From IMG/VR virus record IMGVR_UViG_3300030109_000899, positions 1 through 20,926 of that record: a stretch of DNA of 20,926 nt; one strand, 5' to 3'. Shown piece by piece: positions 1-20,899 of this stretch; position 1 is the stretch's first letter, and each line of letters begins with the position of its first letter. Under the pieces are notes generated by a model, which was not told where the DNA came from, did not search any database, and was given only the letters and a program-made list of their open reading frames with translations. Made by a program: the position numbers and the translations under genes. The stretch comes from a virus.

Positions 1-1029
1 ACTGAGTTATCACAACCTGCAGTAGGAGCATCTGGAAGTATCACTAACCAGGCTACAGTACAAGGACAATTAGAAAATATTACACAAGATATTGAAGCGT
101 CTTTAGCAGCAGGCACACCATTACCTGCATTTGCTAGAGGTGCACAAAAAATGGCTATGGCAGCCATGGCACAAAGAGGATTATCAGCTAGTACAATAGC
201 AGCTGATGCAGTAGCTGAAGGTGTGCTTAGAGCATCGACACAGATAGCACAAGCAGACGCTCAAACTTATAAAGATATGATATTCCAAAACTTAAGTAAT
301 AGACAACAGGCTATGATTACTAATGCCCAAAATTACTTTCAGTTGGATATGCAAAATTTATCAAATAAACAACAAGAGTTTTTAACTAATGCACAACTAA
401 AGCAACAATTTATGTTGTCAGATCAAGCTGCAGTAAATGCTTCTTCACAATTTAATGCAACTAATCAACAACAAACTGATCAATTTTTTGCAAACTTAAA
501 TGCATCTATAGATGAATCAAATGCAAAAAGATTTGATGCAATACAAAAATTTAATGAAACAGAAGTTAATAAAGCTAATGCTTTAAATGCACAAAATGCT
601 ACAGCTGTTGCTGAAGCTAATGCATCTAGAGCACAAACAGCAGATCAATTTAATGCTACTGTAAAAGATGCTAGAGAAAAATTTAATGTAGATAATCAAA
701 GAATAATAGATCAAAGTAATGTTGAGTGGAGACGTGCTATTAATACAGCTAATACAGCAGCTGTAAATGCAGCCAATCAGACTGATGCACAAGCGGCACT
801 AGATATATCTAATTATGCTATGAATGCACTTTGGCAACAATGGCGAGATGAAGCATCTTGGGCAAACTCAACTTCAGAAAATGATCGTAATAGATCTCAC
901 AACTTAGCAGTAGCAGCTATGGAAAGGTCTACAACATTTGATATTATGGATCAAGAATCAGAAGACAGACTACTAGAGTTTATTGGTTCATTTGCTTTAG
1001 GTATGTGGGAATCTAAAAATGAAGATTAA
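1..1029 (+). CDS. Virion structural protein, Asn/Gln/Ala-rich hendecad coiled coil (5' end cut by window)
   Basis: The reading frame is open from base 1, so the gene starts upstream; the first in-window ATG (151) is internal, because the 50 codons before it read as the same Ala/Gln-rich protein. Residues 41-201 (counted from that ATG) form an 11-residue repeat with Asn at almost every 11th position, which predicts a long right-handed coiled coil. The C-terminal part switches to a Trp-rich segment (VEWRR, LWQQWRDEASWAN) and ends in a short hydrophobic helix (LLEFIGSFALGMW). Proteins with this 'DAREKFN..NQR', 'LWQ..RD.A.W' style are familiar as virion proteins of marine phages; exact role unknown. 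As the first of five virion genes before the two largest ones, it sits where T7-like phages carry gp14. It could instead be a fibre or appendage protein. Confidence 0.75.
   Translation, partial: TELSQPAVGASGSITNQATVQGQLENITQDIEASLAAGTPLPAFARGAQKMAMAAMAQRGLSASTIAADAVAEGVLRASTQIAQADAQTYKDMIFQNLSNRQQAMITNAQNYFQLDMQNLSNKQQEFLTNAQLKQQFMLSDQAAVNASSQFNATNQQQTDQFFANLNASIDESNAKRFDAIQKFNETEVNKANALNAQNATAVAEANASRAQTADQFNATVKDAREKFNVDNQRIIDQSNVEWRRAINTANTAAVNAANQTDAQAALDISNYAMNALWQQWRDEASWANSTSENDRNRSHNLAVAAMERSTTFDIMDQESEDRLLEFIGSFALGMWESKNED
271..753 (+). repeat. Protein-level 11-residue (33-bp) repeat tract with periodic Asn
   Basis: Codons 41-201 of the first gene fall into consecutive 11-residue units, most ending in Asn, such as LSNRQQAMITN, LSNKQQEFLTN, AKRFDAIQKFN, ASRAQTADQFN, ATVKDAREKFN and VDNQRIIDQSN. 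Asn occupies the last place at residues 47, 58, 69, 80, 102, 124, 135, 146, 157, 168, 179, 190 and 201; only 91 (Asp) and 113 (Phe) break the series. The residue before it is often Phe. The repeat is in the protein rather than in near-identical DNA copies, so it is old or under structural selection. Confidence 0.85.
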
Positions 1030-1044
1030 AATTAGGAGATTATA

Positions 1045-1377
1045 ATGAGTGATGGTAAATCAATATGGGAATATGCAGAAGATGGGTATGATGCATTTAC
1101 TAATTTATTTGGAGATGATGCTTTAGAAGAAGGCATTCGAGCAGGATATAATTATCTTACTGAAGATGATCAAAGCTCTTCAAGTACAAAATTAAAAAGA
1201 TTAAGAGGTAGAGTTGGCATAAAAACAGCTGGCATGGCTGCTCCAGGAGCGACTAAGGCACCTGGATCAAGAGTATCAAGTCAGTACGAAGTAGTTTATA
1301 GTAAATATAATTCAATATTTAGAAACGCTATCTCTCAAGCAAAATCAGCAACAGTAAAAACAGGACGAAGAGTATAA
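1045..1377 (+). CDS. Small phage protein of unknown function in the virion block
   Basis: This gene encodes 110 residues. An AGGAG ribosome site at 1034-1038 sits 6 bases before the ATG, so the start is secure. The first 40 residues are acidic and aromatic (SIWEYAEDGYDAFTNLFGDD); then comes a Ser run (DDQSSSST) followed by a basic, Gly/Ala-rich linker (KLKRLRGRVG, then AAPGATKAPG) and a basic helical C-terminus ending KTGRRV. The charge changes from acidic to basic along the chain. I do not recognise the family. It lies 15 bases after the coiled-coil protein and one base before the next virion gene, so a virion or ejection-complex accessory role is likely from context only. Confidence 0.65.
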   Translation: MSDGKSIWEYAEDGYDAFTNLFGDDALEEGIRAGYNYLTEDDQSSSSTKLKRLRGRVGIKTAGMAAPGATKAPGSRVSSQYEVVYSKYNSIFRNAISQAKSATVKTGRRV

Positions 1378-1378
1378 T

Positions 1379-1894
1379 ATGGAACCAACGTATGATAAAT
1401 TTAGCACTCCTATTCCAGGGCAATCTTTAACAGATACTCCTGGTAAATGGTCTTGGGAACAACCGCCACGATTTACATCAATAGAAGAAGCTGCAGATGC
1501 AACTATGCAAAGATTATTTACAGATAAAAATACTAAAAACGTAATTATGATGTTAGAAGCAGGAGTTCCTGTAGAAGGTGTTGCAAGATCAATAGTATTT
1601 GCTGGATTTCAATCTGGTGCATATACTGTTGATGTGGCTCTTTTACTAACACCGATGGTTACAGAAGCTGTTTTAACTATAGGCACAGTTGCAGAAGTTA
1701 AAGACTTAAGGCTTAGTATGAAACCTAGAAATCAAAAACAAGATGACTTTGAAGTAGGTATGGCAGATGCTAAGTTTATAAAATTTTTATCTGAAAAAAC
1801 TGAAAAAGATTTAACTAAAATAAAAGAAGCTGCAGAAGAAAAAGAACCTACAGAAGGTTTAATGTCACGACCAACAAAAGAAGAGGATGAATAA
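1379..1894 (+). CDS. Virion-associated protein of the 'PGQSLTDTPG..WE.PP' type
   Basis: This gene encodes 171 residues. The ATG follows the previous TAA by one base and no strong ribosome site is visible, so translation probably continues from the upstream gene. The N-terminus carries TPIPGQSLTDTPGKWSWEQPP, a Pro/Trp signature I associate with small virion proteins of marine phages (from memory, not a search). The middle (about residues 35-110) is a helical region with a hydrophobic patch (VDVALLLTPMVTEAVLTIGTV), and the C-terminal 50 residues are a charged Lys/Glu-rich tail (KEAAEEKEPTEG). It shares the A of a TAATG junction with the 657-aa gene, which suggests their products are made in step. 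Function unknown; a virion or ejection-complex part by context. Confidence 0.65.
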   Translation: MEPTYDKFSTPIPGQSLTDTPGKWSWEQPPRFTSIEEAADATMQRLFTDKNTKNVIMMLEAGVPVEGVARSIVFAGFQSGAYTVDVALLLTPMVTEAVLTIGTVAEVKDLRLSMKPRNQKQDDFEVGMADAKFIKFLSEKTEKDLTKIKEAAEEKEPTEGLMSRPTKEEDE

Positions 1895-3867
1895 TGGTTG
1901 ATTTAAAAAGATTACTAGTACCACTTGCAACAGGTGCTTTAGGTGCAAAAGTTGGCCTTATGGCTAAAGAGAAAGAAAAAGAAGAACAGGCGATTGAAGA
2001 AGCAGAAGGTGTAAATTCTACATTAGTTACAGATGCAATTAATACTTCTAGAAATCAACTTACTAATGAATCAAATATACAAAATCAAACGTATAGTTTA
2101 ATGGTAAGTAACTACAATATTTTAAAAGATAGATATGGTGCAGATAAAGAAGACGACTTAGCACTTTTATATACAAGAAATAGAGGCCTATTTAAGTCTC
2201 AAGATATTACAAAAAGATTTGATGAAATTGATTCTCTACTATCTACTGGATTACTTGGTGATATAGTTGGAGAAGGCATAGATAGAAAATTTGTTCCTGG
2301 TGCTGATATTACAGGAGAAACTCCTCAGATAAAAAGTATTTATGAAGCGTATGGTCAGGACGTTACTGCTGGAGATATTATAAAACAACAACAAGATAAA
2401 TATAATAAACAAGTAAATGCAGGACTTTCTAATTTAGCTGGCGAAAATAATACAAAATTATTTATAGATAAAACTGTTCAACCTGGAATGGTTAGAGAAA
2501 AAACTTTACAAAGAGATGAGTTCCAAACAGGCAGAGTTTCACAAGAACAATTTATGACTAACATAAATGATATTGTGGATCAAGCAACTATGCAAGATTT
2601 AACCAGTGTAGATATAGCAAAAATGTCACAAACAGTTAACTGGTCTCCAGTGCTAAGTGCAGAGGATTTAAATATGGCAGCAATAAATGCTATACCTGGT
2701 GTAACTAATCAAGATGAGTTACTAAGAGAAAGATACAAATTTAGTTATCTATTAGACACTGCAAAAACTATAAAGTTACAAAATGGAAATGTTGAAACTA
2801 CAGATGAAGCTATTGATATACTACGAGCAAATGGCAGAATAACTAGAGATAGTGTAATAAACTCTTTAACTGCACTAGATAGAGCAGTGCTTGATCGTGT
2901 TAATGCATTAAAAGATCAAGCTATGAGAGACCCATTGGCACCAGAATCTCAAGCACTTAAAGAGGCAGTAGCTGGTTTTACAATACAAGGAACTGATCAA
3001 GAAAAAATGATAGACGTAAATGGAGTAGATGTACCTTTAAGAGGTGTGGTGCACAATATAGAAAATCAATTTAGGGAAACTGCTAAATTAGAATATAGTA
3101 GGCAAGGTTACTATGATCTATTTAATAGATTTGTAAATGTTGGAGATGATGATCAGTTTAACGTAAAAGTAACTGTGCCAGTTAAAGAAAATGAAGAGTC
3201 GCCATTTGTAGATAAGCAAATAACAGGTGCTATTAATCCTCAAATATTATCTGATGGAGGTTTACAAGTTGTAGATACAAAAGATATATATGAAACTATT
3301 GATGTGGTGGATTCTAGAGATTTATTTGGTGTGTATGGTCCAGACGGTATTACACAATTAAAACCAGGAAACTCTGGTATATTTTCTAGTATGGAAGCAC
3401 AAGCACGAGAAAATTTAAAAGAACAAATAATATTAAACTCTGGTGGTATGGAAGCTATAAAACCATTCTTAGTTATGTCTGATGAAGAATTTAAAGCGTA
3501 TGAAGATAGTAAAAAAATAACAGAAAAAAAACAAGAAACAGAAATATTACCTGAAAGTATAAATAGAGATAATTATGAAAATTTCTTACCGCCTGAATTA
3601 ACAATAAAAGAGGGTCAAGGTAGAGGTGCTCCATTTGTAACTAATCCAGAATTAATAAATTGGGCTAAAGAAAATATGTCAGCTTGGGAATCTTTTGTTA
3701 ACTCAATAGGAGAAAAGCCAAAAGCATCTGACTATCCAGAAGATCAAAGAAATGTGAAAGATCCAACACAACAATATGGTATAGACTTAAGATTCTATAA
3801 TACTATTGGAAAAGATTTAATAAAACAACTACCTAAAATACAAAAACTAGTAAAAGATAGAGAGTAG
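1894..3867 (+). CDS. Large virion protein, candidate gp15-like internal/ejection protein
   Basis: This gene encodes 657 residues and starts on the shared A of a TAATG junction, with AGAGGA just upstream at 1882-1887. The N-terminus has a short hydrophobic stretch (LLVPLATGALGAKVGLMA, about residues 7-24), then a Lys/Glu-rich segment. The rest is a soluble, mostly helical protein rich in Asn, Gln, Asp and Lys, with no Cys, no enzyme motif and no signal peptide that I can see. Its place just before the giant 1667-aa gene, and its size (T7 gp15 is about 750 residues), match the gp15 slot of a podoviral internal core. I saw no sequence signature to prove homology, so the name rests on gene order and size. 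Confidence 0.6.
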   Translation: MVDLKRLLVPLATGALGAKVGLMAKEKEKEEQAIEEAEGVNSTLVTDAINTSRNQLTNESNIQNQTYSLMVSNYNILKDRYGADKEDDLALLYTRNRGLFKSQDITKRFDEIDSLLSTGLLGDIVGEGIDRKFVPGADITGETPQIKSIYEAYGQDVTAGDIIKQQQDKYNKQVNAGLSNLAGENNTKLFIDKTVQPGMVREKTLQRDEFQTGRVSQEQFMTNINDIVDQATMQDLTSVDIAKMSQTVNWSPVLSAEDLNMAAINAIPGVTNQDELLRERYKFSYLLDTAKTIKLQNGNVETTDEAIDILRANGRITRDSVINSLTALDRAVLDRVNALKDQAMRDPLAPESQALKEAVAGFTIQGTDQEKMIDVNGVDVPLRGVVHNIENQFRETAKLEYSRQGYYDLFNRFVNVGDDDQFNVKVTVPVKENEESPFVDKQITGAINPQILSDGGLQVVDTKDIYETIDVVDSRDLFGVYGPDGITQLKPGNSGIFSSMEAQARENLKEQIILNSGGMEAIKPFLVMSDEEFKAYEDSKKITEKKQETEILPESINRDNYENFLPPELTIKEGQGRGAPFVTNPELINWAKENMSAWESFVNSIGEKPKASDYPEDQRNVKDPTQQYGIDLRFYNTIGKDLIKQLPKIQKLVKDRE

Positions 3868-3870
3868 TAC

Positions 3871-6800
3871 ATGGCCGAATACGGTAAGATTAAGAGTATC
3901 ACAGAGGTACCTTTTGAAGAACGTGAAAATAGAGTTCTATATAATGCACCTGGATATAGCTATCCTGTATTAGAAAAAGTTAATTACTTTAGTGATGATG
4001 CAGGAACTATACAAGAAAAGTTAAACTTAGATTACATGCCATTTATGGAAGAGCCTAAGACTACTGAATTAGGTAAGGCTGCAAAGTATGGATTTTCTAG
4101 TGCCGTGTCTGGTGCAGTATATAACTTTAGTGGTATACCTGGATGGACAGATTCTTTAGCAGATTATACTTTAGAAAAATTAGGATACAATCCTGATCAA
4201 TGGAAGTTTGATTATGTTAATGGAGAAAATATAGCTTTAGATACCAACCAAGGTACATTAGCAGAAAGAGAAGCATTAAAGAAACAGTTTCTTGAAAAAG
4301 AAAAATTTAAAAATTCATTAGATGAAAGTTCTATAAAACAATTTTCTTTTAATCTTTTAGCAGGTATAGATAGTGTTGAAGATTATTTAAGAGATACTGC
4401 AGAAACTCTTGGCCCTGAACATATGTTTAACTTAGGTCAAGACTATGTTCCTGATACAATAGCAGAACAAGTTGTTGCAGGATTTGCTGGTGCACCTATA
4501 ATGATAGCTGAATATGGTGCCTATACAGCGGCAGCCATAGGAGGACTAGCTGCAGTTGGTATTCCTGGTGCAGTTGTTGGTGGATCTGCACTTGCATTTG
4601 GTACAGTAGGATTCTTAGGCTCATACGAACAGCCTTGGGCAAAAGTATTTAGTAACACTGCAATGGGTGCCATAGAAGGTGCTGCATTTGGTAGTGTAGG
4701 TAAGTTAAATGGTTGGGCAACAAGATCTATAGCATTAGGTGCTATTGGTGCTGCATCTGCTAAAATGCATGGGGGTGGCACAACAGAAGTTATATCTGGT
4801 GCTATTACACTTGCAGGATTAGGTTTTGCTGGACCTATGATAGGTCTTAAAAGACAAGGTGAAGGTGCATTTACTGCTCCCCCTAAAGCTGCATTTACAT
4901 CCACACCTGCATATTCGTCCATTACTCACGATAGTGCTAGATTGTCTGCACATGCAGAGCCATTAACTAAGTTTATAAAAACTAATGGTAAGGGATACCA
5001 TAAAGAAATAGAACCATTACCTTTTGAGTTTGCTGAGTTATCAAAAAAAGAACTAACTAAAAGAGATAAACGTGATAAGGTAATGAGAGATACTGGTAAC
5101 GTTGAACCTTTAATAGCAACTAAAGCAACGCAACGTGCTATTGAAAATGGTAAAGAACTAATACCTTTTCAAAGAACCAAACCAGAAACAAAAAAAGAAG
5201 AGATTGATGTTACTAAAGGAGAAAAACCAGTAACAGAAAAAGTGTCTATACCTAGAGACCAAGTTATTTTAGATGGTAAATTTTTAGATTTAACTGTACA
5301 CATAAATGCTAGAACTAAAAATGTTGTGCCTACTAGAAAAACACCAGAAGTAAAAAAACCAAAATCATCTTTTGATGAACTTAACTTAGTACTATCAGCT
5401 AGAACTAGTAACAGTAAGGTTGCTGCAGAAAATGTAAGTATTGCTAGAGATCTTTCACAAAGATATGGTTTAAAATTTTTAGGAGATGGTGCTAAAGTAG
5501 AAGTTAAACTTAGTCAGATACAGGCAATAGCTAAATCTAGAAAAAAAAGTGATGCTTGGGCAAAAGAATTGTTACCAAAGATAGTAGAACTTAAAACTAA
5601 AAAAGAAAATAATTTAAATAAAAGACTTACATCTTATCAAAAAGCTATAGATAAAACCCAAAAGGCTATGGGTAGACTTGCAGTTGCTAGTATTAACTTA
5701 AGACCAGATCCAGGTGAGTCTCCCTTTAAACATTTTAAAGAACTTGAGAATGCGCTATTAGATACAAAAGGTAAAATTAAGTTAGACAAACAAGGCAATC
5801 CTATTGAAGTAGATTTAACTGGTAAAATAGGTGGGCTTACTGGTAAGATATTTAATTTTGCAGAAACATTTGGATTACCTGCTAAACTTGCAGGAGACCC
5901 ATCAAAAAATGCTTTCATGCGATTTGTAACTACTGGTGTTAAAAATACTCAACGTGCTATTGAAGCAGGTAAAGATGACATACTATATAAACGATTAATA
6001 GATCCTACTTACAAGCCAGATAAAACTAGATTTATTGAAGAGAATCCTGGCATAACACAAGGTGGTGTGCTGTATAGTTTTGGTAATGTTCTTGGTAAAA
6101 TAAAAACTTTTAAAAGTAAAGAAGGTGCCTGGACTCAATTTGAATTATTACTAAAACAAAAAGGTAAAAAAGAAGGAGTAGAGACAGCTAATAGAATTAT
6201 AAAAGCTATGGTAAAACGTGAGGTTATCATGGAGAAAAGAGCCATGTTAGCTGCAGGCGGTAAAAAAGCGAAGAAAGAAAAAGTAGAAAAATTATTATTG
6301 TCTAAGAGAGAGGACGGATCTTATGTGTTCCAAATGACATATGATAGAATGGCATCAGAGTTTAAGTTAACTAAACAAGAAGTAGATATTATTAGAAACT
6401 TAGATAGAGGACTTGCAGAAGCTAGAATATATCACAACAGATCTGTAAAAGAAAATCCAGAAGTTGGTGCTACTATAATACCAGAAAGACCTAACTATTT
6501 TCCTAGAGTTTGGAATGGTAGGCATAGAATATATATTAAAGAGCCTGGCAAAGAAGGGCAAATGATTCATGCTATAGCTGGTAAAACTGAAAAAGAAGTG
6601 TATGGCATTTATGATACATTTATAAAAGCTAATCCTCAATACAAAAATCATGTTGTTAACTATGAATTAAAATCTGATTTATCAGTTGGTAGAAGAGAAA
6701 ATATGAATCTATCTTTTGATGAGTCAATTAGATTATGGGATAAAAAAAATCCAGATGTAGCTGCATTACTTAAAGAAGCACAAGTTGATTACTTAGCTGC

Positions 6801-8874
6801 AAGAGGTTTTGGTGCTAGAAAAGTAGCAAGAAAAGATGTAGGTGGATATGTAGGCACTGGTAAAGAAGGTCGTAGATTGTTAGAAGACTTTACTGATGCA
6901 TACATTGGTTATATTGATGGTGCTATAAGAGGTGCAGAGGCTATAAGATTTAGAGGAAGAATAGAACCTGTAATAGGTGGCAGAAGTAAGTTTAATGATT
7001 TAATACCACAACAAGTTTCATTTGCTAAAAAATATGTAGATAATGCTTTTGGTAGAGATGCTAGTTACTTTGCTAAAAAAGGAGACAAGTTAATAGAGAC
7101 AATAGCAGACTCTGCTATATTTAAAAAATTTGGTAGCCCTGGAACTTTTCAAAAAGCAATACAATATGCTAACTCTTTTACGCTGCATAAAGCATTACTA
7201 TTTTTTAACCCAAGATTCTTATACTCACAAATTGTACAGCCATATCAAATGGGTGCACAAAGATTACAGTTTATGAAAGTAGAGTATGGAATTAAAGGTG
7301 ATGTTGGTAAGGCTATGGTTGAAGGATCTTATTTACCCTTTAAACCAACAAAAGAATTTAGAGAGTTAATTACTGATGCAATTAAAAGTGGTACTATTGA
7401 TACTAAATTTTTAAAAGAATTTGGTATTGATGCACGGACTGGTGAAAGAATTAGAACCATGTCTGAAGAAATAAGAACAAAAATTTGGGAACGTAGCACT
7501 GGTAAAAGATTATCAGAAATGGCAGAGAGGCATAGTAGATTAACTGCATTAGCCATGAACTATTCTTTCTTAAAGAGTGGTAAATATGATGTAGCTAATG
7601 GTAAACAAAATATGTTTAATACTGCAAAGTGGATGACAGATAACATGATGGTTGAATATAACTTTACTAATAGACCAATGATGTACACTCACCAGGGTTT
7701 AGGAACTATAGGATCTTTGTTTGGTTTATTTAAAACATTTCAACACAACTACTTTGGACAAGTTGCACAGTATGCAAGAACATACTCTAAAGGTATACAA
7801 AAACATGGTGGTGGTTTAAAAGGTTTTGCAAAAGGGTCATTTTCAGCAGAGGCAACTCCTTTGATGATGCATGCTGTAAGTATGGTAATGACAGCTGGAA
7901 TGTTTGGCATTATGGCTGTTAATCAAATTGATTTTCTATTAAAGCAAATGGATAAAGCAGTACAAGGTGGATTAAAAGCTGCTGGTGTAAAAAATCCTGG
8001 TCAATATAGAATACCAGAATACACAGAAATGGTTTTAAAATTAGATATACCAATAGAGCAAAAGTTTGGAGTGCCTTCTGCATTAGTAAATGCTGATGTG
8101 TCTTCAACACTAGCAGCTCCAGGCATTGGAGTAGGAGACATATTTAGTTTACCAACATTAGATTTTCTATTTGGTTATACTTCAAAAACAAATGAAGGTG
8201 TTATAGGTAATACTTTTAACATGGTTATGAAGGGAGCTACTGGCAGATTAACTGATGTTGATATATACAAATTTTTAAAAGCAACATCACCTCCTGTTTT
8301 ATTAGCAGAAGTTGAAAGAAGATTTGCTGGTGTATCCTCTCAGGCTATGTTTTCTGCAGTTCCAGGATTTGAAAGAGAATCACCTTTAAAAGGTGAGCCT
8401 ATAACTGAAGCTAGAGGTAGATATATGGAGTTTAAAAATGGTAGATATATTGTTAGCAATCCATATAAAAAAATGTATGGGCAGATAGAGAGAGACATTG
8501 GAGGATTTTGGAAAAGATATTTAGGTGGTCGTTCTTTTGAAGAATCAATTATATTAAAAAGTATATGGCAAAGTACAAAGATTAGTATGAACCATAGAGA
8601 TAAAATTGATGCATTAGTAACACAAGCAGCAGATAATGGATACGATGGTTTCTATGAAAGCATTATGTTCTTTACAGATGCTGCTATAGATTTAGGATAT
8701 ACCCAAGAACAGTTTATAGAAAAGGTTGTAAACAGAATGGAAGTTCAAAGTAACACCGTATTAAGCAGATTAAAAGCCTATGGTGAAAGATACAATATGA
8801 CAAGAGATGATTTTATAAGATCAGTTATACATAATAATAATATTAAACTGGCATATCCGCCAGGTTCAGAATAG
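3871..8874 (+). CDS. Giant virion protein, candidate gp16-like DNA-ejection/internal core protein
   Basis: At 1667 residues this is by far the longest gene in the window. It starts 3 bases after the previous stop with only a weak AGAGAG upstream. Residues about 200-325 are very Gly/Ala-rich and hydrophobic (for example AAAIGGLAAVGIPGAVVGG), a likely membrane-inserting segment. Residues about 330-660 are basic and charged. A conserved-looking core follows: RPNYFPRVW near residue 873, a Gly/Arg-rich stretch near 975-1010, and FFNPRFLYSQIVQPYQMG near 1111. A second hydrophobic helix lies near 1334-1357 (VSMVMTAGMFGIMAV). T7 gp16 has an N-terminal lytic transglycosylase; I see no such motif here. 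Context and size suggest a protein that is ejected with the genome and helps DNA cross the envelope. A large polyvalent virion protein of another kind is the alternative. Confidence 0.6.
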   Translation: MAEYGKIKSITEVPFEERENRVLYNAPGYSYPVLEKVNYFSDDAGTIQEKLNLDYMPFMEEPKTTELGKAAKYGFSSAVSGAVYNFSGIPGWTDSLADYTLEKLGYNPDQWKFDYVNGENIALDTNQGTLAEREALKKQFLEKEKFKNSLDESSIKQFSFNLLAGIDSVEDYLRDTAETLGPEHMFNLGQDYVPDTIAEQVVAGFAGAPIMIAEYGAYTAAAIGGLAAVGIPGAVVGGSALAFGTVGFLGSYEQPWAKVFSNTAMGAIEGAAFGSVGKLNGWATRSIALGAIGAASAKMHGGGTTEVISGAITLAGLGFAGPMIGLKRQGEGAFTAPPKAAFTSTPAYSSITHDSARLSAHAEPLTKFIKTNGKGYHKEIEPLPFEFAELSKKELTKRDKRDKVMRDTGNVEPLIATKATQRAIENGKELIPFQRTKPETKKEEIDVTKGEKPVTEKVSIPRDQVILDGKFLDLTVHINARTKNVVPTRKTPEVKKPKSSFDELNLVLSARTSNSKVAAENVSIARDLSQRYGLKFLGDGAKVEVKLSQIQAIAKSRKKSDAWAKELLPKIVELKTKKENNLNKRLTSYQKAIDKTQKAMGRLAVASINLRPDPGESPFKHFKELENALLDTKGKIKLDKQGNPIEVDLTGKIGGLTGKIFNFAETFGLPAKLAGDPSKNAFMRFVTTGVKNTQRAIEAGKDDILYKRLIDPTYKPDKTRFIEENPGITQGGVLYSFGNVLGKIKTFKSKEGAWTQFELLLKQKGKKEGVETANRIIKAMVKREVIMEKRAMLAAGGKKAKKEKVEKLLLSKREDGSYVFQMTYDRMASEFKLTKQEVDIIRNLDRGLAEARIYHNRSVKENPEVGATIIPERPNYFPRVWNGRHRIYIKEPGKEGQMIHAIAGKTEKEVYGIYDTFIKANPQYKNHVVNYELKSDLSVGRRENMNLSFDESIRLWDKKNPDVAALLKEAQVDYLAARGFGARKVARKDVGGYVGTGKEGRRLLEDFTDAYIGYIDGAIRGAEAIRFRGRIEPVIGGRSKFNDLIPQQVSFAKKYVDNAFGRDASYFAKKGDKLIETIADSAIFKKFGSPGTFQKAIQYANSFTLHKALLFFNPRFLYSQIVQPYQMGAQRLQFMKVEYGIKGDVGKAMVEGSYLPFKPTKEFRELITDAIKSGTIDTKFLKEFGIDARTGERIRTMSEEIRTKIWERSTGKRLSEMAERHSRLTALAMNYSFLKSGKYDVANGKQNMFNTAKWMTDNMMVEYNFTNRPMMYTHQGLGTIGSLFGLFKTFQHNYFGQVAQYARTYSKGIQKHGGGLKGFAKGSFSAEATPLMMHAVSMVMTAGMFGIMAVNQIDFLLKQMDKAVQGGLKAAGVKNPGQYRIPEYTEMVLKLDIPIEQKFGVPSALVNADVSSTLAAPGIGVGDIFSLPTLDFLFGYTSKTNEGVIGNTFNMVMKGATGRLTDVDIYKFLKATSPPVLLAEVERRFAGVSSQAMFSAVPGFERESPLKGEPITEARGRYMEFKNGRYIVSNPYKKMYGQIERDIGGFWKRYLGGRSFEESIILKSIWQSTKISMNHRDKIDALVTQAADNGYDGFYESIMFFTDAAIDLGYTQEQFIEKVVNRMEVQSNTVLSRLKAYGERYNMTRDDFIRSVIHNNNIKLAYPPGSE

Positions 8875-9532: not shown

Positions 9533-10254
9533 TTAGAAGTATAGGCGTAGCTGTAGTTATTACAGTCTGTATGTTGTGGGCCTTTAGCGCATTAATGGAT
9601 TCTGCTATGGCAGACGTAACTGGTGCTGGTAGTACCACAAATGATCAGGTAACTTCTGGATCATCATCAAGTAATACGGCTATAACAGGAGGATATCACA
9701 GTGAAGCAACAACAAACTATCAATCAGGATCTTCTCAAACTACAAGTACAACCAATACAACCAACAACAATAACAACTCCTATACAGGAGACACTAGAAC
9801 TGTGCCTTCAGCATCTGCTCCTGGCATCTCTGCTATGTCTCAAGATCTGTGTACTGTTGGCGTTGGTATAGGAATACAAAAGCCACTTATAGGCGGCAGT
9901 ATTGGTATTACTAAACGTGATATGAATTGTGAACGTATGAAACTGGCTAAACTTCTTTTTGATTTTAATATGAAGGTTAGTGCTGTTGCTATATTATGCC
10001 AAGATGCAAGAGTATTTCAGAGCATGGTTATGGCGGGGACGCCCTGTCCCTTTAACGGACGCATAGGCAGTGAAGCTTTAGCTGAATGGAATAAATACGA
10101 ACAACAAAGACCAGACTACGAAGAATATACTAAGGCTCTTAATTATATGCAAAGAGTTGATAATAAAATTGCAGTAGAATTAGAACAAGAGGCTAACCCA
10201 GATGAACAAATTATTACTGACGGTAACGGCAATCGTATTAACCTCGGTCATTAG
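9529..10254 (+). CDS. Exported protein with Ser/Thr/Asn-rich linker and Cys-containing C-terminal domain
   Basis: The ATG at 9529 is preferred over a TTG at 9502: it makes an ATGA overlap with the upstream stop and has GGAGAAG just before it. This gives 241 residues. Residues 1-28 form a signal peptide (charged MIR, hydrophobic core, cleavage at SAMA/DV). Residues 31-95 are a low-complexity Ser/Thr/Asn/Gly linker with an Asn run. The C-terminal domain holds Cys108, 134, 157 and 173 in contexts such as DLCTVGVGIGIQKP, RDMNCERMKLAKLL, ILCQDARVF and GTPCPF. Four Cys in an exported domain suggest two disulfides. No enzyme family is recognised. The gene overlaps the next exported protein by 53 bases. 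It may act in the periplasm during lysis, or be a virion protein; the sequence does not decide. Confidence 0.7.
   Translation: MIRSIGVAVVITVCMLWAFSALMDSAMADVTGAGSTTNDQVTSGSSSSNTAITGGYHSEATTNYQSGSSQTTSTTNTTNNNNNSYTGDTRTVPSASAPGISAMSQDLCTVGVGIGIQKPLIGGSIGITKRDMNCERMKLAKLLFDFNMKVSAVAILCQDARVFQSMVMAGTPCPFNGRIGSEALAEWNKYEQQRPDYEEYTKALNYMQRVDNKIAVELEQEANPDEQIITDGNGNRINLGH
10035..10051 (+). repeat. GC-rich hairpin inside the 241-aa exported gene
   Basis: GGGAC (10036-10040) and GTCCC (10046-10050) pair perfectly around a 5-base loop GCCCT, and a G-U pair adds a sixth step. It is a small GC island in AT-rich DNA and is followed by only three T. It encodes part of the AGTPCPFNG stretch, so codon need may explain it. 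A weak internal terminator or pause site is possible but unproven. Confidence 0.4.
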
Positions 10255-12025
10255 TCGTGCTGATGTAGTTGTCATACCTGACACACCCAATGTGGGAGAT
10301 TTTACTACTGTCACAACTGTGACAACAGGTAATCCTGTTACTAGTAATAACTTGATAAGCCAAGATTTTGCTGATGGTACTTGGAATGGTACTATGTTTC
10401 CAGATAATTCTGATCTTAATCACTCAACTTGGTTGACTGGCAAAGATGGCAAGTATGCAGAAACTTCAATAGACTCAGAAGATTATGTTTCACTAGAAGA
10501 ACTAAAACTAGGTTTTACTTCAAACTTTACAGCTAATATTAGGTGGTGGAATCAGGTTGAATCTACTGTTACAATGACGCAATCTATTAGTAACGGTATC
10601 GACACCACAACACAAAGCACAACTTTTGAAGACACCACAAACTCTAGCTATCAGGTAAATCCATATGGTAATATTTTAGTAGTTAATCCTGATGCCAATA
10701 TGACACACGGCACCGCAACCTATAGGTTTGATTTTGATATCGTAAACGACAATCAAGCAGGGTATAACGGAGGCCATGCTGGCGTGGATGTGCGAGACCC
10801 ATCAGCCAGGATAGACTATACCGCTTTATCTAGTACTACTATAAGTGAGATAACATATTGTTGGCAACAGACACCACCAACATGCCCAGGTCAGGAAGAG
10901 ATAGAAGATGTTCAGGATATTATTGAAGAGATAGATACTATTATAGTTGACTTTGAAGTGCCAGAAGATACATTTTTACCTGAGTATGTGGAGATAGACT
11001 ATGAGTTTAATGATATCTTTGAAGATGAAATTATAATAGAAGAAGATACATTTGAAATTTTAGCACTTGATGAATTTTTTTTTGAAGAGGATTACTTTCA
11101 AACTGACTATTACGAAGAGCCTGAATTGGAAGTCTTTTTTCCAGAAGACATTATGTTGGTAGAAGAAATAGAAATGTTTGATGCTCTACCACCAATAGAA
11201 ATGTTTGAAGAAATACCAGTAATTGAAGAGATATATGAGGCAGTGCCTGAAACAATGTTTGTAGAAGAATTTACAGACGAAATGCAAGAGGAGTTTATAG
11301 ATGAAGTTGAAGAATATTTTGAAGAGCCTATGGAAGAAATTGCCATGGTTGAAGAAGAAGTTGTGCCTATGCAAGAAGAACCCAGTATGTCAGTGCAAGA
11401 AACAATCCAAGAAGAAGTCGTACAAGAAGAAAGTATCCAAGAAGAGGTTATCGAAGAAGAACCAACAGAAGAGATAGCAAGTGAAATTGAAGAGCAACCC
11501 AGTAGCGAAGAGCCTACTGCAAACGAACCAGAACCAACAACAGAAGTTGCCGAACAAGAAGAAGTTATCGAGGAGCCAATTGAAGAAGGACCTACAGAAG
11601 TTGCAGAAGAGCCAGGAACAGAACCTAAAGGAGACGTGGAAGTTGATCTAGATATTAAGGTTGCAAAGATTGAACAGGCTATACAAAGTAAAATAAAAAA
11701 TGTTGCACAACAAATAGATGCAACACTAACGGTTATAAATGAAGTGGTCAGTAGAGAAATGATATCTCAAGAACCTGATATGTCATCTTACTTTAATACT
11801 AATTTAGCATTGTTTGATACTAGGCAATTGCCATCAGGCAATCAAGATTTTTTTCTACAAGCTAGCCTTGCTAGCTACAGTAAACCTATTTACGTTGCAC
11901 AAGTAAGTATAGCAGGTACAGATCCTGTAGTGCAGTACCAAATTAAAGTAAACAATGCAAAACAAAAAACAAATGAAGCATATAAAAAATTAAAGGAGTT
12001 ATTAAATGCAAGGAATATTCAATAA
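10202..12025 (+). CDS. Sec-exported protein with a 272-residue cation-free acidic segment
   Basis: This gene encodes 607 residues. The start lies inside the previous gene but is supported by the signal peptide it creates: MNK, a hydrophobic core LLLTVTAIVLTSVI, and a probable cleavage at SRA/D (residue 20). An AAGAGG lies upstream. Residues 21-215 look like a folded Thr/Ser/Asn-rich, beta-type domain. A Cys pair follows (220 and 228). Residues 204-475 hold no Lys, Arg or His at all and are dominated by Glu and Asp, first with aromatic and Ile residues (DEFFFEEDYFQTDYYEEPE), then as Gln/Glu/Pro/Val-rich repeats (VQEE, IQEEV, IEEEP). Residues 476-607 return to normal charge, with a helical start (DIKVAKIEQAIQSKIKN) and a Lys-rich end. 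No family recognised. The gene overlaps the next one by 20 bases. Confidence 0.7.
   Translation: MNKLLLTVTAIVLTSVISRADVVVIPDTPNVGDFTTVTTVTTGNPVTSNNLISQDFADGTWNGTMFPDNSDLNHSTWLTGKDGKYAETSIDSEDYVSLEELKLGFTSNFTANIRWWNQVESTVTMTQSISNGIDTTTQSTTFEDTTNSSYQVNPYGNILVVNPDANMTHGTATYRFDFDIVNDNQAGYNGGHAGVDVRDPSARIDYTALSSTTISEITYCWQQTPPTCPGQEEIEDVQDIIEEIDTIIVDFEVPEDTFLPEYVEIDYEFNDIFEDEIIIEEDTFEILALDEFFFEEDYFQTDYYEEPELEVFFPEDIMLVEEIEMFDALPPIEMFEEIPVIEEIYEAVPETMFVEEFTDEMQEEFIDEVEEYFEEPMEEIAMVEEEVVPMQEEPSMSVQETIQEEVVQEESIQEEVIEEEPTEEIASEIEEQPSSEEPTANEPEPTTEVAEQEEVIEEPIEEGPTEVAEEPGTEPKGDVEVDLDIKVAKIEQAIQSKIKNVAQQIDATLTVINEVVSREMISQEPDMSSYFNTNLALFDTRQLPSGNQDFFLQASLASYSKPIYVAQVSIAGTDPVVQYQIKVNNAKQKTNEAYKKLKELLNARNIQ
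10811..11626 (+). other. Coding segment for polyacidic, Lys/Arg/His-free region
   Basis: These 272 codons (residues 204-475 of the exported acidic protein) contain no codon for Lys, Arg or His. GAA and GAG codons dominate and the second half forms imperfect short repeats around QEE/EEV/EEP. Such a segment would stay extended and strongly negative, and could bind divalent cations or basic partners. The reversed strand therefore shows spurious Ser/Ile-rich open frames. Confidence 0.85.
11860..11876 (+). repeat. Perfect 7-bp inverted repeat with 3-base loop
   Basis: AGCTAGC (11860-11866) and GCTAGCT (11870-11876) flank CTT within the coding sequence for LQASLASYS in the acidic exported protein. 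No T run follows, so a terminator is unlikely. It may be chance from repeated Ala-Ser codons. Confidence 0.4.
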
Positions 12026-12292: not shown

Positions 12293-14008
12293 ATGGTAGA
12301 CACATTAGCACCAAAAAGAATATTTACTCAAAGAGATTTAGATAAAAGTTTAATACAGCGAACGCCTGTTGGTCAAAGTATTATGGCACCTGCATCTAAT
12401 GTACTTGATACGACACCTGATGTTAGCACACAAAAAAGTTTAACGGATACTCCACAACCAGATTATGTTGTAGACAAAAATCAAGTATTTAATATGATGC
12501 AAAATTTACAGAAAGCATCAAGATCTAGAGTTGCTGAAACTAGAGACACAGTTAAATCATCTGAAGAAACTACAAAAGAAAAACAAACAGGCATGCGTAC
12601 TGAAAGACAAGAGACACCTCAAAGTGGTAGTTTGGTAATGAGACCTGTTGAGTATGCAGCTGATGGTGTGAAAGATAAAGAAGTAAGTGGCCCAATACTT
12701 GTTGGAGAAAAAGGTGCTGAACTTGTAGTGCCAACTGGAGAGGGCAAGGTTAGCATACTAGATGCTAAGACTACTAGTGGTCTTATGAAATTTCCAGGCT
12801 ATGGTGATGAAATGATAACTACAAAGTATGTTGATGATTTAAGTGAAAAACAATTTGAAGATCCAAAAGAACCAAGTAAACTTCAAAAAAGACAGGCATT
12901 TAAACGTGGTAAAAAAGCTGAACCAGAACTTGTAAAAATACCACAAGCAGATGAGGATGAAGATTTTATAAAATACATGAAGAAAGTAGAGAACGCTAAG
13001 TTATTGGCTGGAGACACCTCAATGTTACAGCATGATTCTGCAGAAGGTGGCAATAAAACTATAGCATACGGGCACAAGTTAACAGATAAAGAACGTGAAT
13101 TAGGAAAAGTTTATGGTTACGATATTGAAAATTTAACTATAGAACAAGCAAATGAAATATTAAAAAGAGATCTCTCGAAAGCATACGATCAACTTACAAA
13201 TACGTTTGGTAGACAGTTTTTAGATCTTGATGATAGGCGTAAACAAATGCTAGTAGATATGCAATTTAATTTAGGAAGTCTTGAAGCCTTTCCTAAATTT
13301 ACAGAGGCACTGTTTGCTGGAGATGAAACAACTATGATGAAAGAATACAAGAGATCTTTCAGAGATCCAGAGTCAGGCAATATGAAACCTTTAACTGGCA
13401 GAAATAAAGATTTTAATGAGTTCTTTTTTAAAGGTATGGCAAAAGCATCTCTCGTAACTAAGCCAATTAAGAAGGCTGAGAAGGGTGCAAAGAATGTTGA
13501 GATAGGTAAAGCAGAACCTGCAGGATTCTTTTTTAGAAACCCAGCAACTCCAGACAAAGAATCTGGTGGTGAAAAGTTACTGAAGTTTTTCTTTGGAGAT
13601 AAAGATGAAGAAGAAGAAACAGCTATGCGAAACCCTATGAGACCATCCGCAGTATCACCAGGATTGCCAGCAGACGAAGACGCATTTGATATTAGCAAAA
13701 TAATGGATGAAGATGGCTCACCTAATGTAACTTATTTTTATGATAATATTGAGGAGATTGCAAGATATGGTTTTCAACAAAGATTTGGAACAGATCGTGA
13801 ACCAACTGAACAAGAATTAAAAGATGCCGAAGAAGAGGCATTTGCTAAAATGCGTGCATATTTACATATGTCATTAGAAAAATCAGAGAAAGATCTTTTT
13901 GAAACTTTACAGGAAAGCTATAGAAAACCTGACCCATACGATCCTTTAGGAAAAAGAAAACAAAAGTTACTTGATCAGTATGGTCCTGAAATTCTTCCTG
14001 AAGTCTAA
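12293..14008 (+). CDS. Lysozyme-domain protein (GH24-like muramidase) with long flanking arms
   Basis: This gene encodes 571 residues; AGGAG at 12283-12287 fixes the start. The N-terminal 220 residues are charged and probably disordered, with KSLTDTP near 48-54 and GPILVGEKGAELVVPTGEG at 133-151, which resembles a short motif seen in tail tape measure proteins. Residues about 222-385 form the lysozyme domain: candidate catalytic Glu233 (MKKVENAK), Asp248 (QHDSAEGG) and Thr256 in TIAYGHKL, then a helical lobe with DMQFNLGSLEAFPKFTEAL. The catalytic spacing is longer than in T4 lysozyme (Glu-8-Asp-5-Thr) but fits a form I recall from marine phages. The C-terminal 185 residues are acidic and unrecognised. 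The product should cut peptidoglycan, either at lysis or as a virion enzyme at entry; the long arms favour a virion-linked role. Confidence 0.75.
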   Translation: MVDTLAPKRIFTQRDLDKSLIQRTPVGQSIMAPASNVLDTTPDVSTQKSLTDTPQPDYVVDKNQVFNMMQNLQKASRSRVAETRDTVKSSEETTKEKQTGMRTERQETPQSGSLVMRPVEYAADGVKDKEVSGPILVGEKGAELVVPTGEGKVSILDAKTTSGLMKFPGYGDEMITTKYVDDLSEKQFEDPKEPSKLQKRQAFKRGKKAEPELVKIPQADEDEDFIKYMKKVENAKLLAGDTSMLQHDSAEGGNKTIAYGHKLTDKERELGKVYGYDIENLTIEQANEILKRDLSKAYDQLTNTFGRQFLDLDDRRKQMLVDMQFNLGSLEAFPKFTEALFAGDETTMMKEYKRSFRDPESGNMKPLTGRNKDFNEFFFKGMAKASLVTKPIKKAEKGAKNVEIGKAEPAGFFFRNPATPDKESGGEKLLKFFFGDKDEEEETAMRNPMRPSAVSPGLPADEDAFDISKIMDEDGSPNVTYFYDNIEEIARYGFQQRFGTDREPTEQELKDAEEEAFAKMRAYLHMSLEKSEKDLFETLQESYRKPDPYDPLGKRKQKLLDQYGPEILPEV

Positions 14009-18835: not shown

Positions 18836-20899
18836 TCACATTACTATCCTTTCCTTTTTTAAAGAAACTTCATTCATTTCTAACCAATTATCGCCTATCT
18901 TTAGCTCCGTGTCAAGTGGTACATTGAACTCAACTTTATAAAAGTCATACAAAGAATCAATAACATTTCTAGTTGCTTTGTCTAGTAGATCAGTCATTAA
19001 TTCTACCTCATCTGGGTGTGCATCTACAACTATGGAATCGTGCACAGTATTTATTAATAAACTTTTTACACCCTTATCTCTCATCATTTTGTAAGCATTG
19101 ATACATGCTATGGGTACTATATCAGCAGTTGCAAAACCTTGAACTGGATAGTTCTTTATCTGTGTGGAGTAACTAGAGCCACCCCATGCCTGTCTTTGTG
19201 CATACGGAAATGAATACTCACGACCTGATGGTAGCTTTACTTTCTTAAACTCTATAGCTGTACTTTGTAAAGTCTCATGCCACTTTGCTATGTCTTTGTA
19301 CTTCTCAAGAAATGCTTTGTAGTATCTTTTCTCACTATCACTACCTGACATGCCACCATACAAAGGTTTGAATGTATGTGCTTTTGCATCTTGCCTACTT
19401 ACTCCAATAGTATCTGCGGTAAACTGATGTACATCTACACCATCATCGATATCTTTCATGCCCTGCTTATCCTGTGCTAAGAATACAGCAGTCCTAAATT
19501 CTAATTGTGAAAAATCTATCTCCATAATCTTACCACCCTTAAACCTGGAAGATATAACTTTACGAATAGGAAAAGTATTACCTCTTGGTTGGTTCTGAAA
19601 GTTGGGATCACGACTTGATAGTCTTGCTGTAGCTGTAACACACTGCATAAACTTAGGATGCAATACACTATCCTCATTTACATGATCTCTTATACCATTT
19701 ACAAATGTATTTAGATATGTATCTATGGCATTGTATCTGATAATTAAATCAACAAACTCTTTCATATCTCCTTGCGCCCTCATAGATAACTTCTTCAATG
19801 TATCTCTATCTGTTTTAAACCCACCCTCTGCTACCTCTGACACACCAACAGGCATCTGATTAAAACCTGCAGTTCTGTTAAGCTGTAGATAAATTACTCC
19901 TTCTCCATTGCACTGAGGACACTTTGTAAGATTCTTAAATGGTTCTCCATTAACTTTAAATCTTCTAATTAAACCTTTACCTTCACAGTGACTGCACTGT
20001 GCTGCTGATGTCTGCTTAATTGTTTTTGTGTTTAATGCTACTAAATCTCTAAACTTAGACTTTGATAGTGTGGGTCTGCGTTTCTTTCTCTTGGTAAATT
20101 TATCTATGCCTATGTTAAATGTCTCTGCCCACTTTTTTTTATCTATAACTTTTCTAGAGTAGATTAACCAAGATAATTGCTCTGTGCTAGCAGGATTGAT
20201 AGGCGTATCTCCCATCTTCTCTCTGATAATCTTTTTTATTTCCTGTGCCAGTCTGCCAAACTCTTCTTTAAACTCTTGCTCCACAGCATTCAATGCATTT
20301 AGGTCAATGTTTATGCCATTTATTTCCATATCTGCAAGCACTGGTAGAAATTCATTCATCATTTTGGCTGATTTAAGTAAGGGTTTGTTACCTTCTTTCT
20401 TAAAATCTACTATCTGTGCATTAAACAAAGCTCGTGTAGATACCACATCCTGCCTACCATACTCTTCAATAATACTCACAGGTATATCTTCAAATGATAT
20501 CTTGCGTTTCATATAGTCATCTACTGCATCTGACTTCTGAGATATACTTCTGCGTTTACATATATCTTTTAATGATAGTGGCTTTCTTAATCCACGAAGT
20601 AATATATACTCACCTATCATGGTATCGTACAATCTGCCAGTGTATTTAAATCCTGACTCCAGTAGCCACACTAAATCAAACTTAATGTTGTGGCCAACAA
20701 GTAGTGTAGTCTTATCTAGTATATCTTGAACTGCCTTGTGATTAGATTGTATATCAAAGCTCTCGTGATTGTGATTAAAAAAATAATACTCATCATTAAC
20801 TCCAATACTAACTAAGCAATTGTTAGGATTGAAAGGAAGTGGATCTACTTTGCCATCCACGATTTGAAAACTGGTCTCTACGTCTAATACTGAAATCAT
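18836..20899 (-). CDS. Family A DNA polymerase with 3'-5' exonuclease domain and zinc-motif insertion
   Basis: This gene encodes 687 residues, close to T7 DNA polymerase (704). Exonuclease motifs: Asp6/Glu8 (LDVET), Asn71/Asp75 (GHNIKFD) and Tyr147/Asp151 (YGRQD), so proofreading should be active. Polymerase motifs: TATARLSSRDPNFQNQP (417-440 region), motif A IDFSQLEFR (Asp462), motif B RQDAKAHTFKPLYG (Arg502, Lys506, Phe510, Tyr514) and motif C VHDSIVVD (Asp621). Two CxxCxGxG motifs (Cys302/305 and 327/330) lie in an insertion before motif A, after the NPAS..QL thumb helix. Motif C has Ser where Glu is usual. No 5'-3' nuclease domain is present. A GAGGT lies before the ATG. This is the replicative polymerase of the phage and the first complete gene of the minus arm. 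Confidence 0.95.
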   Translation of the reverse strand: MISVLDVETSFQIVDGKVDPLPFNPNNCLVSIGVNDEYYFFNHNHESFDIQSNHKAVQDILDKTTLLVGHNIKFDLVWLLESGFKYTGRLYDTMIGEYILLRGLRKPLSLKDICKRRSISQKSDAVDDYMKRKISFEDIPVSIIEEYGRQDVVSTRALFNAQIVDFKKEGNKPLLKSAKMMNEFLPVLADMEINGINIDLNALNAVEQEFKEEFGRLAQEIKKIIREKMGDTPINPASTEQLSWLIYSRKVIDKKKWAETFNIGIDKFTKRKKRRPTLSKSKFRDLVALNTKTIKQTSAAQCSHCEGKGLIRRFKVNGEPFKNLTKCPQCNGEGVIYLQLNRTAGFNQMPVGVSEVAEGGFKTDRDTLKKLSMRAQGDMKEFVDLIIRYNAIDTYLNTFVNGIRDHVNEDSVLHPKFMQCVTATARLSSRDPNFQNQPRGNTFPIRKVISSRFKGGKIMEIDFSQLEFRTAVFLAQDKQGMKDIDDGVDVHQFTADTIGVSRQDAKAHTFKPLYGGMSGSDSEKRYYKAFLEKYKDIAKWHETLQSTAIEFKKVKLPSGREYSFPYAQRQAWGGSSYSTQIKNYPVQGFATADIVPIACINAYKMMRDKGVKSLLINTVHDSIVVDAHPDEVELMTDLLDKATRNVIDSLYDFYKVEFNVPLDTELKIGDNWLEMNEVSLKKERIVM
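19898..19996 (-). other. DnaJ-like double CxxCxGxG motif inside the DNA polymerase
   Basis: The codons for residues 302-334 give CSHCEGKG and CPQCNGEG separated by 17 residues. The pair matches the zinc-binding repeat of DnaJ. It interrupts a lysine-rich stretch (FTKRKKRRP, LNTKTIKQT) between the thumb helix motif and the GGFKTDRDTLKKL segment, so it is an inserted element of the polymerase, not a separate gene. Confidence 0.85.

Follow-up and report, generated by a model that had tools for sequence, protein, structure and literature searches.

A protein with asparagine at every eleventh residue in HMO-2011-type podophages: a candidate modular-length bundle of helices for genome delivery

The viral DNA analyzed here (the window, 20,926 nucleotides, positions 1 to 20,926 of IMG/VR record IMGVR_UViG_3300030109_000899) begins inside a gene whose product carries Asn at nearly every 11th residue, which raises the question of what structure such a repeat maintains and what that structure does for the virus. 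Frame +1 is open from nt 1 and ends at 1029, with residue n beginning at nt 3n-2. The ATG at 151 is internal and not where the gene starts: the reading frame continues back to nt 1, and a full-length homologue (L002, 445 aa, 94% identical) has ~104 extra N-terminal residues compared to the window protein. The complete product, here called the hendecad protein, has ~450 residues, and the ~104 N-terminal ones are missing from the window. Its features are as follows.

1..1029, plus strand, 3' part of the hendecad protein gene; the frame is open from nt 1 and the start lies upstream of the window
175..186, plus strand, RGLS motif, a conserved anchor upstream of the repeat array, at a distance of 8 modulo 11 from WRR
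271..786, plus strand, hendecad domain, residues 91-262, with in-phase Asn at every 11th residue from 97 to 251
415..432, plus strand, conserved hinge LSDQAA, residues 139-144, a predicted helix break; D141 is invariant and in the Asn phase
727..735, plus strand, WRR motif, residues 243-245, the family anchor motif near the end of the array
964..1008, plus strand, short apolar C-terminal helix, putative from its sequence (DRLLEFIGSFALGMW)

Of the 15 places that follow the series 97+11k, Asn is found in 13 (residues 97, 108, 119, 130, 152, 174, 185, 196, 207, 218, 229, 240, and 251; nt 289-753), the exceptions being D141 and F163. The best-phase count of 13 compares with a mean of 4.7 after shuffling and was reached in 0 of 2,000 shuffles, so the reported recurrence of Asn at nearly every 11th residue over 15 repeats holds; in blocks counted from codon 41 of the presumed start (nt 271), however, the Asn takes place 7 and not the last place. 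The periodicity analysis that had been proposed returned a period of 11: in a scan of periods 3 to 24 only 11 and its multiple 22 stood out, and spectral peaks were present at 2.75, 3.7, and ~10.9 residues, corresponding to 11/4, 11/3, and 11. The earlier note had Asn often following Phe; in the window protein this is so for 4 of the 13 in-phase Asn, though across the family an aromatic residue, usually Phe, fills place 6 in 63% of the post-hinge units. That the repeat is clear in protein and not in DNA is nearly right, except that DNA self-identity was 0.44-0.45 at lags 33, 66, and 99 versus 0.28-0.36 at lags outside the 33-nt series.

By tblastn, the hendecad protein was located in 27 isolate records, including the Pelagibacter phages HTVC033P, HTVC103P, HTVC104P, and HTVC115P, the SAR116 phage HMO-2011, Roseobacter CRP phages, Vibrio CHOED, Aeromonas MQM1 and 1233, Pseudoalteromonas Slicky01, Sinorhizobium phiM6, Rhizobium RHph phages, and one Manatee Spring genome. 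Identity to the window protein was 57% over 99% for HTVC033P and 38% over 72% for HMO-2011. IMG/VR yielded 52 relatives in a single-protein scan and at least 583 in a profile scan. The isolate annotations read 'hypothetical', once 'huntingtin', and in one case the gene is unannotated; HMO-2011 gp25 and HTVC033P gp56 (each 'hypothetical protein') are directly homologous to the window protein and share its repeat, its hinge, and its 171-aa neighbor. The 'huntingtin' entry (L147:1430-4021, MW202701) is a homologue apparently misnamed owing to its Gln/Asn-rich repeats. Those parts of the literature on HMO-2011-type and RCA phages reached by term searches do not describe the protein. Judged by its sequence, the window protein is a member of an HMO-2011-type podophage family of Pelagibacter, SAR116, and Roseobacter phages, for it combines homology, Asn at every 11th residue, an RGLS-to-WRR distance of 184, and a downstream 171-aa partner with the motif PIPGQSLT. 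The RGLS, SDQ, and WRR motifs, together with the Asn phase, can serve as markers for naming the family in metagenomes.

An alignment of homologues, which the earlier note had put forward as a check, showed the 11-step Asn to be conserved. Twelve of the 15 in-phase columns hold Asn in at least 44 of 50 aligned relatives, D141 is invariant among them, and none of the 11 places varies less than the Asn column, whose mean entropy is 0.32 bits; elsewhere in the domain the mean is 1.05 bits (P = 9e-5 across the 50 relatives, with close kin counted at full weight). The repeat is retained in homologues down to ~35-40% identity. The distant members Slicky01, MQM1, CHOED, ctYwJ, and HMO-2011 keep 11-13 of the 15 in-phase Asn; the pattern is less complete, at 8 of 15, in the members from Rhizobium phages, phiM6, and CRP-212.

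The plain distance between the RGLS and WRR motifs was used as the measure of array length to escape the circularity of aligning repeats. At 195 loci (166 distinct sequences) this distance was 184, 195, 206, 239, 250, 338, or 448 residues, and it equaled 8 modulo 11 in all 195. Two later lengths from bacterial-bin contigs, 261 and 272, were out of sample and also gave 8 modulo 11, for a total of nine distinct values from 184 (that of the window protein) to 448. Chance agreement of the eight further lengths with the first would have a probability of ~11^-8 if the events were independent. We conclude that the array lengthens and shortens by whole hendecads only. Variation across the family amounts to 1 to 24 units; in the alignment, it seemed to involve insertions (88 and 264 residues) and a deletion (22 residues). 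The segments on either side of the hinge both vary in length; compared to the window protein, HMO-2011 has two fewer hendecads after the hinge and eight more before it. Other anchor motifs gave some off-phase distances, which are due to motif look-alikes, mostly 5 residues downstream of the hinge or inside the repeat. HTVC033P (184) and HTVC115P (338) share a host genus and differ in spacing, so the host envelope alone does not dictate length. With length quantized so strictly in 11-residue steps, the family provides a clean natural experiment for studying helix-bundle register and the factors that determine how long a delivery rod or tube is.

AlphaFold2 was run on the full-length homologue L002 as a monomer with 33 sequences. 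The model predicts helices at residues 170-241 and 249-418 (window residues ~66-137 and ~145-314), with a break at the conserved LSDQ; confidence was low (mean pLDDT 56, pTM 0.23), reaching ~75-87 along most of the second helix. The 172-residue hendecad domain is devoid of Pro, Gly, and Cys, and hydropathy analysis of the hendecad protein revealed no segment of transmembrane length (no 19-residue stretch above threshold). No match above cut-off to Pfam, PHROGs, or NCBIfam was obtained for the window protein, no sequence match to the PDB at E up to 1 and no credible profile match were found, and a Foldseek search of the model against the PDB returned only unspecific long helices. The earlier proposal that an 11-residue (11/3) helical repeat is kept by protein structure is supported by the homologues, the Asn column, the helix prediction, and the lengths in elevens. 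We looked both for homologues that keep the fold and lose the 11-step Asn and for a globular prediction, and found neither. A bundle of hendecad helices is thus very probable.

How the Asn row would sit in such a bundle differs between the two segments. Units before the hinge read roughly N-L-S-N-R-Q-Q-A-x-L-x and those after it x-x-I-x-Q-F-N-A-x-x-x. Across the hinge the phase of the Asn row is maintained, but the apolar side shifts from ~83 to ~264 degrees. The post-hinge unit is a standard hendecad with apolar places a, d, and h and Asn at the core-type place e; the pre-hinge Asn lies beside the apolar core, not in it, and is equally conserved. If the Asn row runs on unbroken and is flanked by contact strips on either side, a ring or tube fits; if the helix breaks at the hinge and the segments pack separately, a rod does. 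We consider a hollow tube and a solid rod evenly balanced. The family-average hydropathy (first harmonic near zero, second large) was discarded as proof of a barrel, as 13-22% of permutations of the 11 places equaled the second harmonic and separate treatment of the pre- and post-hinge parts showed that the effect arises partly from two segments with opposite apolar sides. The two-sided hydropathy of the family was accordingly not significant versus permuted positions.

The hendecad gene is followed in the window by these genes.

1045..1377, plus strand, 110-aa fast-evolving gene, placed by synteny, with sequence relatives in close loci only
1379..1894, plus strand, 171-aa conserved partner with the PIPGQSLT motif, found at 229 loci and co-occurring with the hendecad protein
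1894..3867, plus strand, 657-aa gene, by gene order in the gp15 slot of an ejection operon
3871..8874, plus strand, 1,667-aa gene, by gene order in the gp16 slot of an ejection operon, with two transmembrane-like segments by hydropathy

The 171-aa partner is present in 24 isolate records, all of them within the 27 of the hendecad protein. Its AlphaFold2 model is all helical (pLDDT 85) with one apolar segment at residues 84-102, and Foldseek gave no PDB match and one unnamed viral relative. The slot of the 657-aa gene is filled by several sequence groups, very different proteins in the same place, whose syntenic members share at most the N-terminal ~70-100 residues across subgroups (~170 in one subgroup pair). 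Directly after the hendecad gene of HTVC115P, a 'toxin-activating lysine-acyltransferase' is annotated (L138:3290-3739).

Phages of Pelagibacter, Roseobacter, SAR116, Vibrio, Aeromonas, and Rhizobium have the block (some later genes being cut in the stretches read): the hendecad gene, then genes of ~65-300, ~170, ~400-660, and >800 residues, varying in detail. The hendecad gene heads this conserved block, whose size order and tail-proximal position resemble those of the gp14-15-16 ejection operon used for comparison (PMC8954989). Layout and helicity are like those of T7 gp14/gp15/gp16, P22 gp7/gp20/gp16, and DEV gp73/gp72/gp71, but the hendecad protein has no detectable homology to podophage ejection proteins, and sequence, profile, and hhalign comparisons found no ejection-protein homology for the genes of the block. 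Specifically, hhalign of the 657-aa group with T7 gp15 gave no homology, the 1,667-aa protein matched nothing in the PDB or the family libraries, and a profile search of the hendecad protein and its three neighbors against the PDB returned nothing credible. The two transmembrane-like segments of the 1,667-aa protein would be expected of an inner-membrane ejection protein, and we treat them as suggestive only. T7 gp14, which forms a channel of six two-helix subunits once ejected (PMC11784390), lacks the 11-residue Asn period, and gp14-like proteins have lengths of ~180-240 aa and are predicted to contain transmembrane helices (PMC8954989), whereas the hendecad protein is ~450 aa with none.

Domain fusions in relatives bear on both symmetry and location. 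Peptidase_S74 domains are known from trimeric fibers and spikes. One is found at the C terminus of CRP-3, CRP-212, CRP-235, and CRP-738; 1 of 30 further diverse members gave a match, and the motif was seen in L105, which belongs to the window's own subgroup and length class. In all, S74 is present on five relatives, which fall in two subgroups, and this argues for a three-fold assembly; the family-library search found the domain absent from the window protein, and most relatives are without it. CRP-235 (L144:1142-3676) carries a LysM domain near its N terminus in addition to the C-terminal Peptidase_S74, and this cell-wall-binding domain argues for cell-wall contact. The profile phrog_6121, 'virion structural protein', spans the hendecad region of CRP-3. 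A match of CRP-235 to phrog_4287, 'DNA ejection protein', was discarded as evidence of function because it covers the S74 domain only.

The nearest known kinds are the 11-mers of siphophage tape measures, discussed below, and the H protein of phiX174, a decameric alpha-helical DNA tube with hendecads, long helices, and an Asn/Gln/Arg-rich strip (PMC7354561). Hendecads and an Asn/Gln/Arg strip are present in the hendecad protein too, and its likeness to this amide-lined tube favors a channel. The H tube combines hendecads and heptads, its lining is mainly Asn, Gln, and Arg, and changes in the lining affect DNA delivery (PMC7354561). Its heptad part, as computed here, has the same two-sided hydropathy pattern as the hendecad family. 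H differs in having three hendecads and then heptads, in lacking Asn at every 11th residue, in belonging to a different virus realm with ssDNA cargo, and in showing no sequence relation.

We propose that the hendecad protein would be a virion component of these short-tailed phages, forming a long, parallel, homo-oligomeric alpha-helix bundle of 11/3 geometry. The Asn row would form a polar strip along every helix, beside apolar contact strips, and face the interior of the assembly as a polar lumen or core layer. Bundle length would be set by whole hendecads (16.5 Å each if helical, ~26 nm for ~172 residues), and units could be gained or lost in evolution with the helix-helix register undisturbed. 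As part of the genome-delivery (ejection) block, the bundle may be deployed through or from the tail across the cell envelope, where its Asn/Gln/Arg surface would give DNA an uncharged route capable of hydrogen bonding, by analogy with the argument made for the phiX174 H tube. A role in genome delivery is somewhat favored by the order and sizes of the gene block, the LysM domain of CRP-235, the phrog_6121 match, and the likeness to phiX174 H, and gene order makes a place in the internal channel plausible. Counted against the proposal are the low-confidence monomeric model, the non-significant two-sided hydropathy, the switch of apolar side at the hinge, the five S74 relatives, the two spacings in one host genus, the absence of such a period from T7 gp14, and the lack of ejection homology; searches found neither virion proteomics nor a structure for the protein. 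Taken as a whole, a modular-length hendecad bundle in the genome-delivery apparatus is the best explanation, with about an even chance of being right. More tentatively, and with considerable doubt, the protein could be an Asn-lined, purely hendecad delivery tube, its length in one-hendecad quanta, that represents an unrecognized class in a marine virus group ranking among the most abundant, unrelated in sequence to T7, P22, or N4 proteins and convergent with phiX174 H. If so, tailed phages would have arrived independently at the phiX174 solution.

The strongest alternative, itself rather unlikely, is a solid trimeric right-handed coiled coil that is folded in the cell and mounted on the tail as a fiber, needle, or other appendage, with Asn in a core whose places a, d, e, and h are Ile/Met, Phe, Asn, and mixed. 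This is the reading of the earlier note, in which buried Asn layers of a trimer or tetramer might hold anions or water. The standard hendecad after the hinge and the C-terminal S74 fusions are consistent with it; the pre-hinge Asn, however, is outside the apolar core yet conserved equally, the window protein and most relatives lack S74, and the gene heads an ejection-like block instead of lying among the annotated tail-fiber genes. Less probable again is an internal ruler or scaffold, a helical rod in the head or tail that measures or holds and is not a conduit. Siphophage tape-measure proteins do have this layout, a varying number of 11-residue units, each with its marker residue, and hence a modular length (PMC3271669), and the family varies in just this manner, but HMO-2011-type phages have short tails (PMC9038755) with no long tube to measure, the gene lies in an ejection-like block, and the marker is Asn and not the Trp or Phe of long-tailed siphophages. 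Amphipathic 11/3 helices lying on a membrane surface, as in the synuclein-type 11-mer, would be permitted by the repeat and the ejected-protein context, but are very improbable for a Lys-poor domain without Gly and of near-neutral charge (15 basic and 18 acidic residues out of 172); nor would membrane binding call for apolar strips accompanied by an invariant row of Asn. An unstructured low-complexity sequence of an A+T-rich genome, which 35% GC, mostly AAT codons for Asn, and a Gln, Ala, and Asn content of about half the domain might suggest, is hardly credible, being contradicted by the phase kept in distant phages, the invariant hinge, and the lengths in elevens.

Several other observations were made. 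Apparently identical phage contigs (L274-L277) occur in a Flavobacteriales MAG (TMED123) and a Neomarinimicrobiota MAG (MED589), and their equal lengths and ranges are a sign of binning contamination. Farther along the window, 10202-12025 encodes a protein of 607 aa, a long part of which is very rich in Glu and repeats imperfectly, and 12293-14008 encodes a central phage lysozyme domain together with a 'GEKGAELVVP' stretch that recalls tape-measure proteins. On the minus strand, 18836-20899 encodes a family A DNA polymerase with a mid-protein match to a DnaJ-type CxxCxGxG zinc finger (E 3e-6, below the Pfam cut-off).
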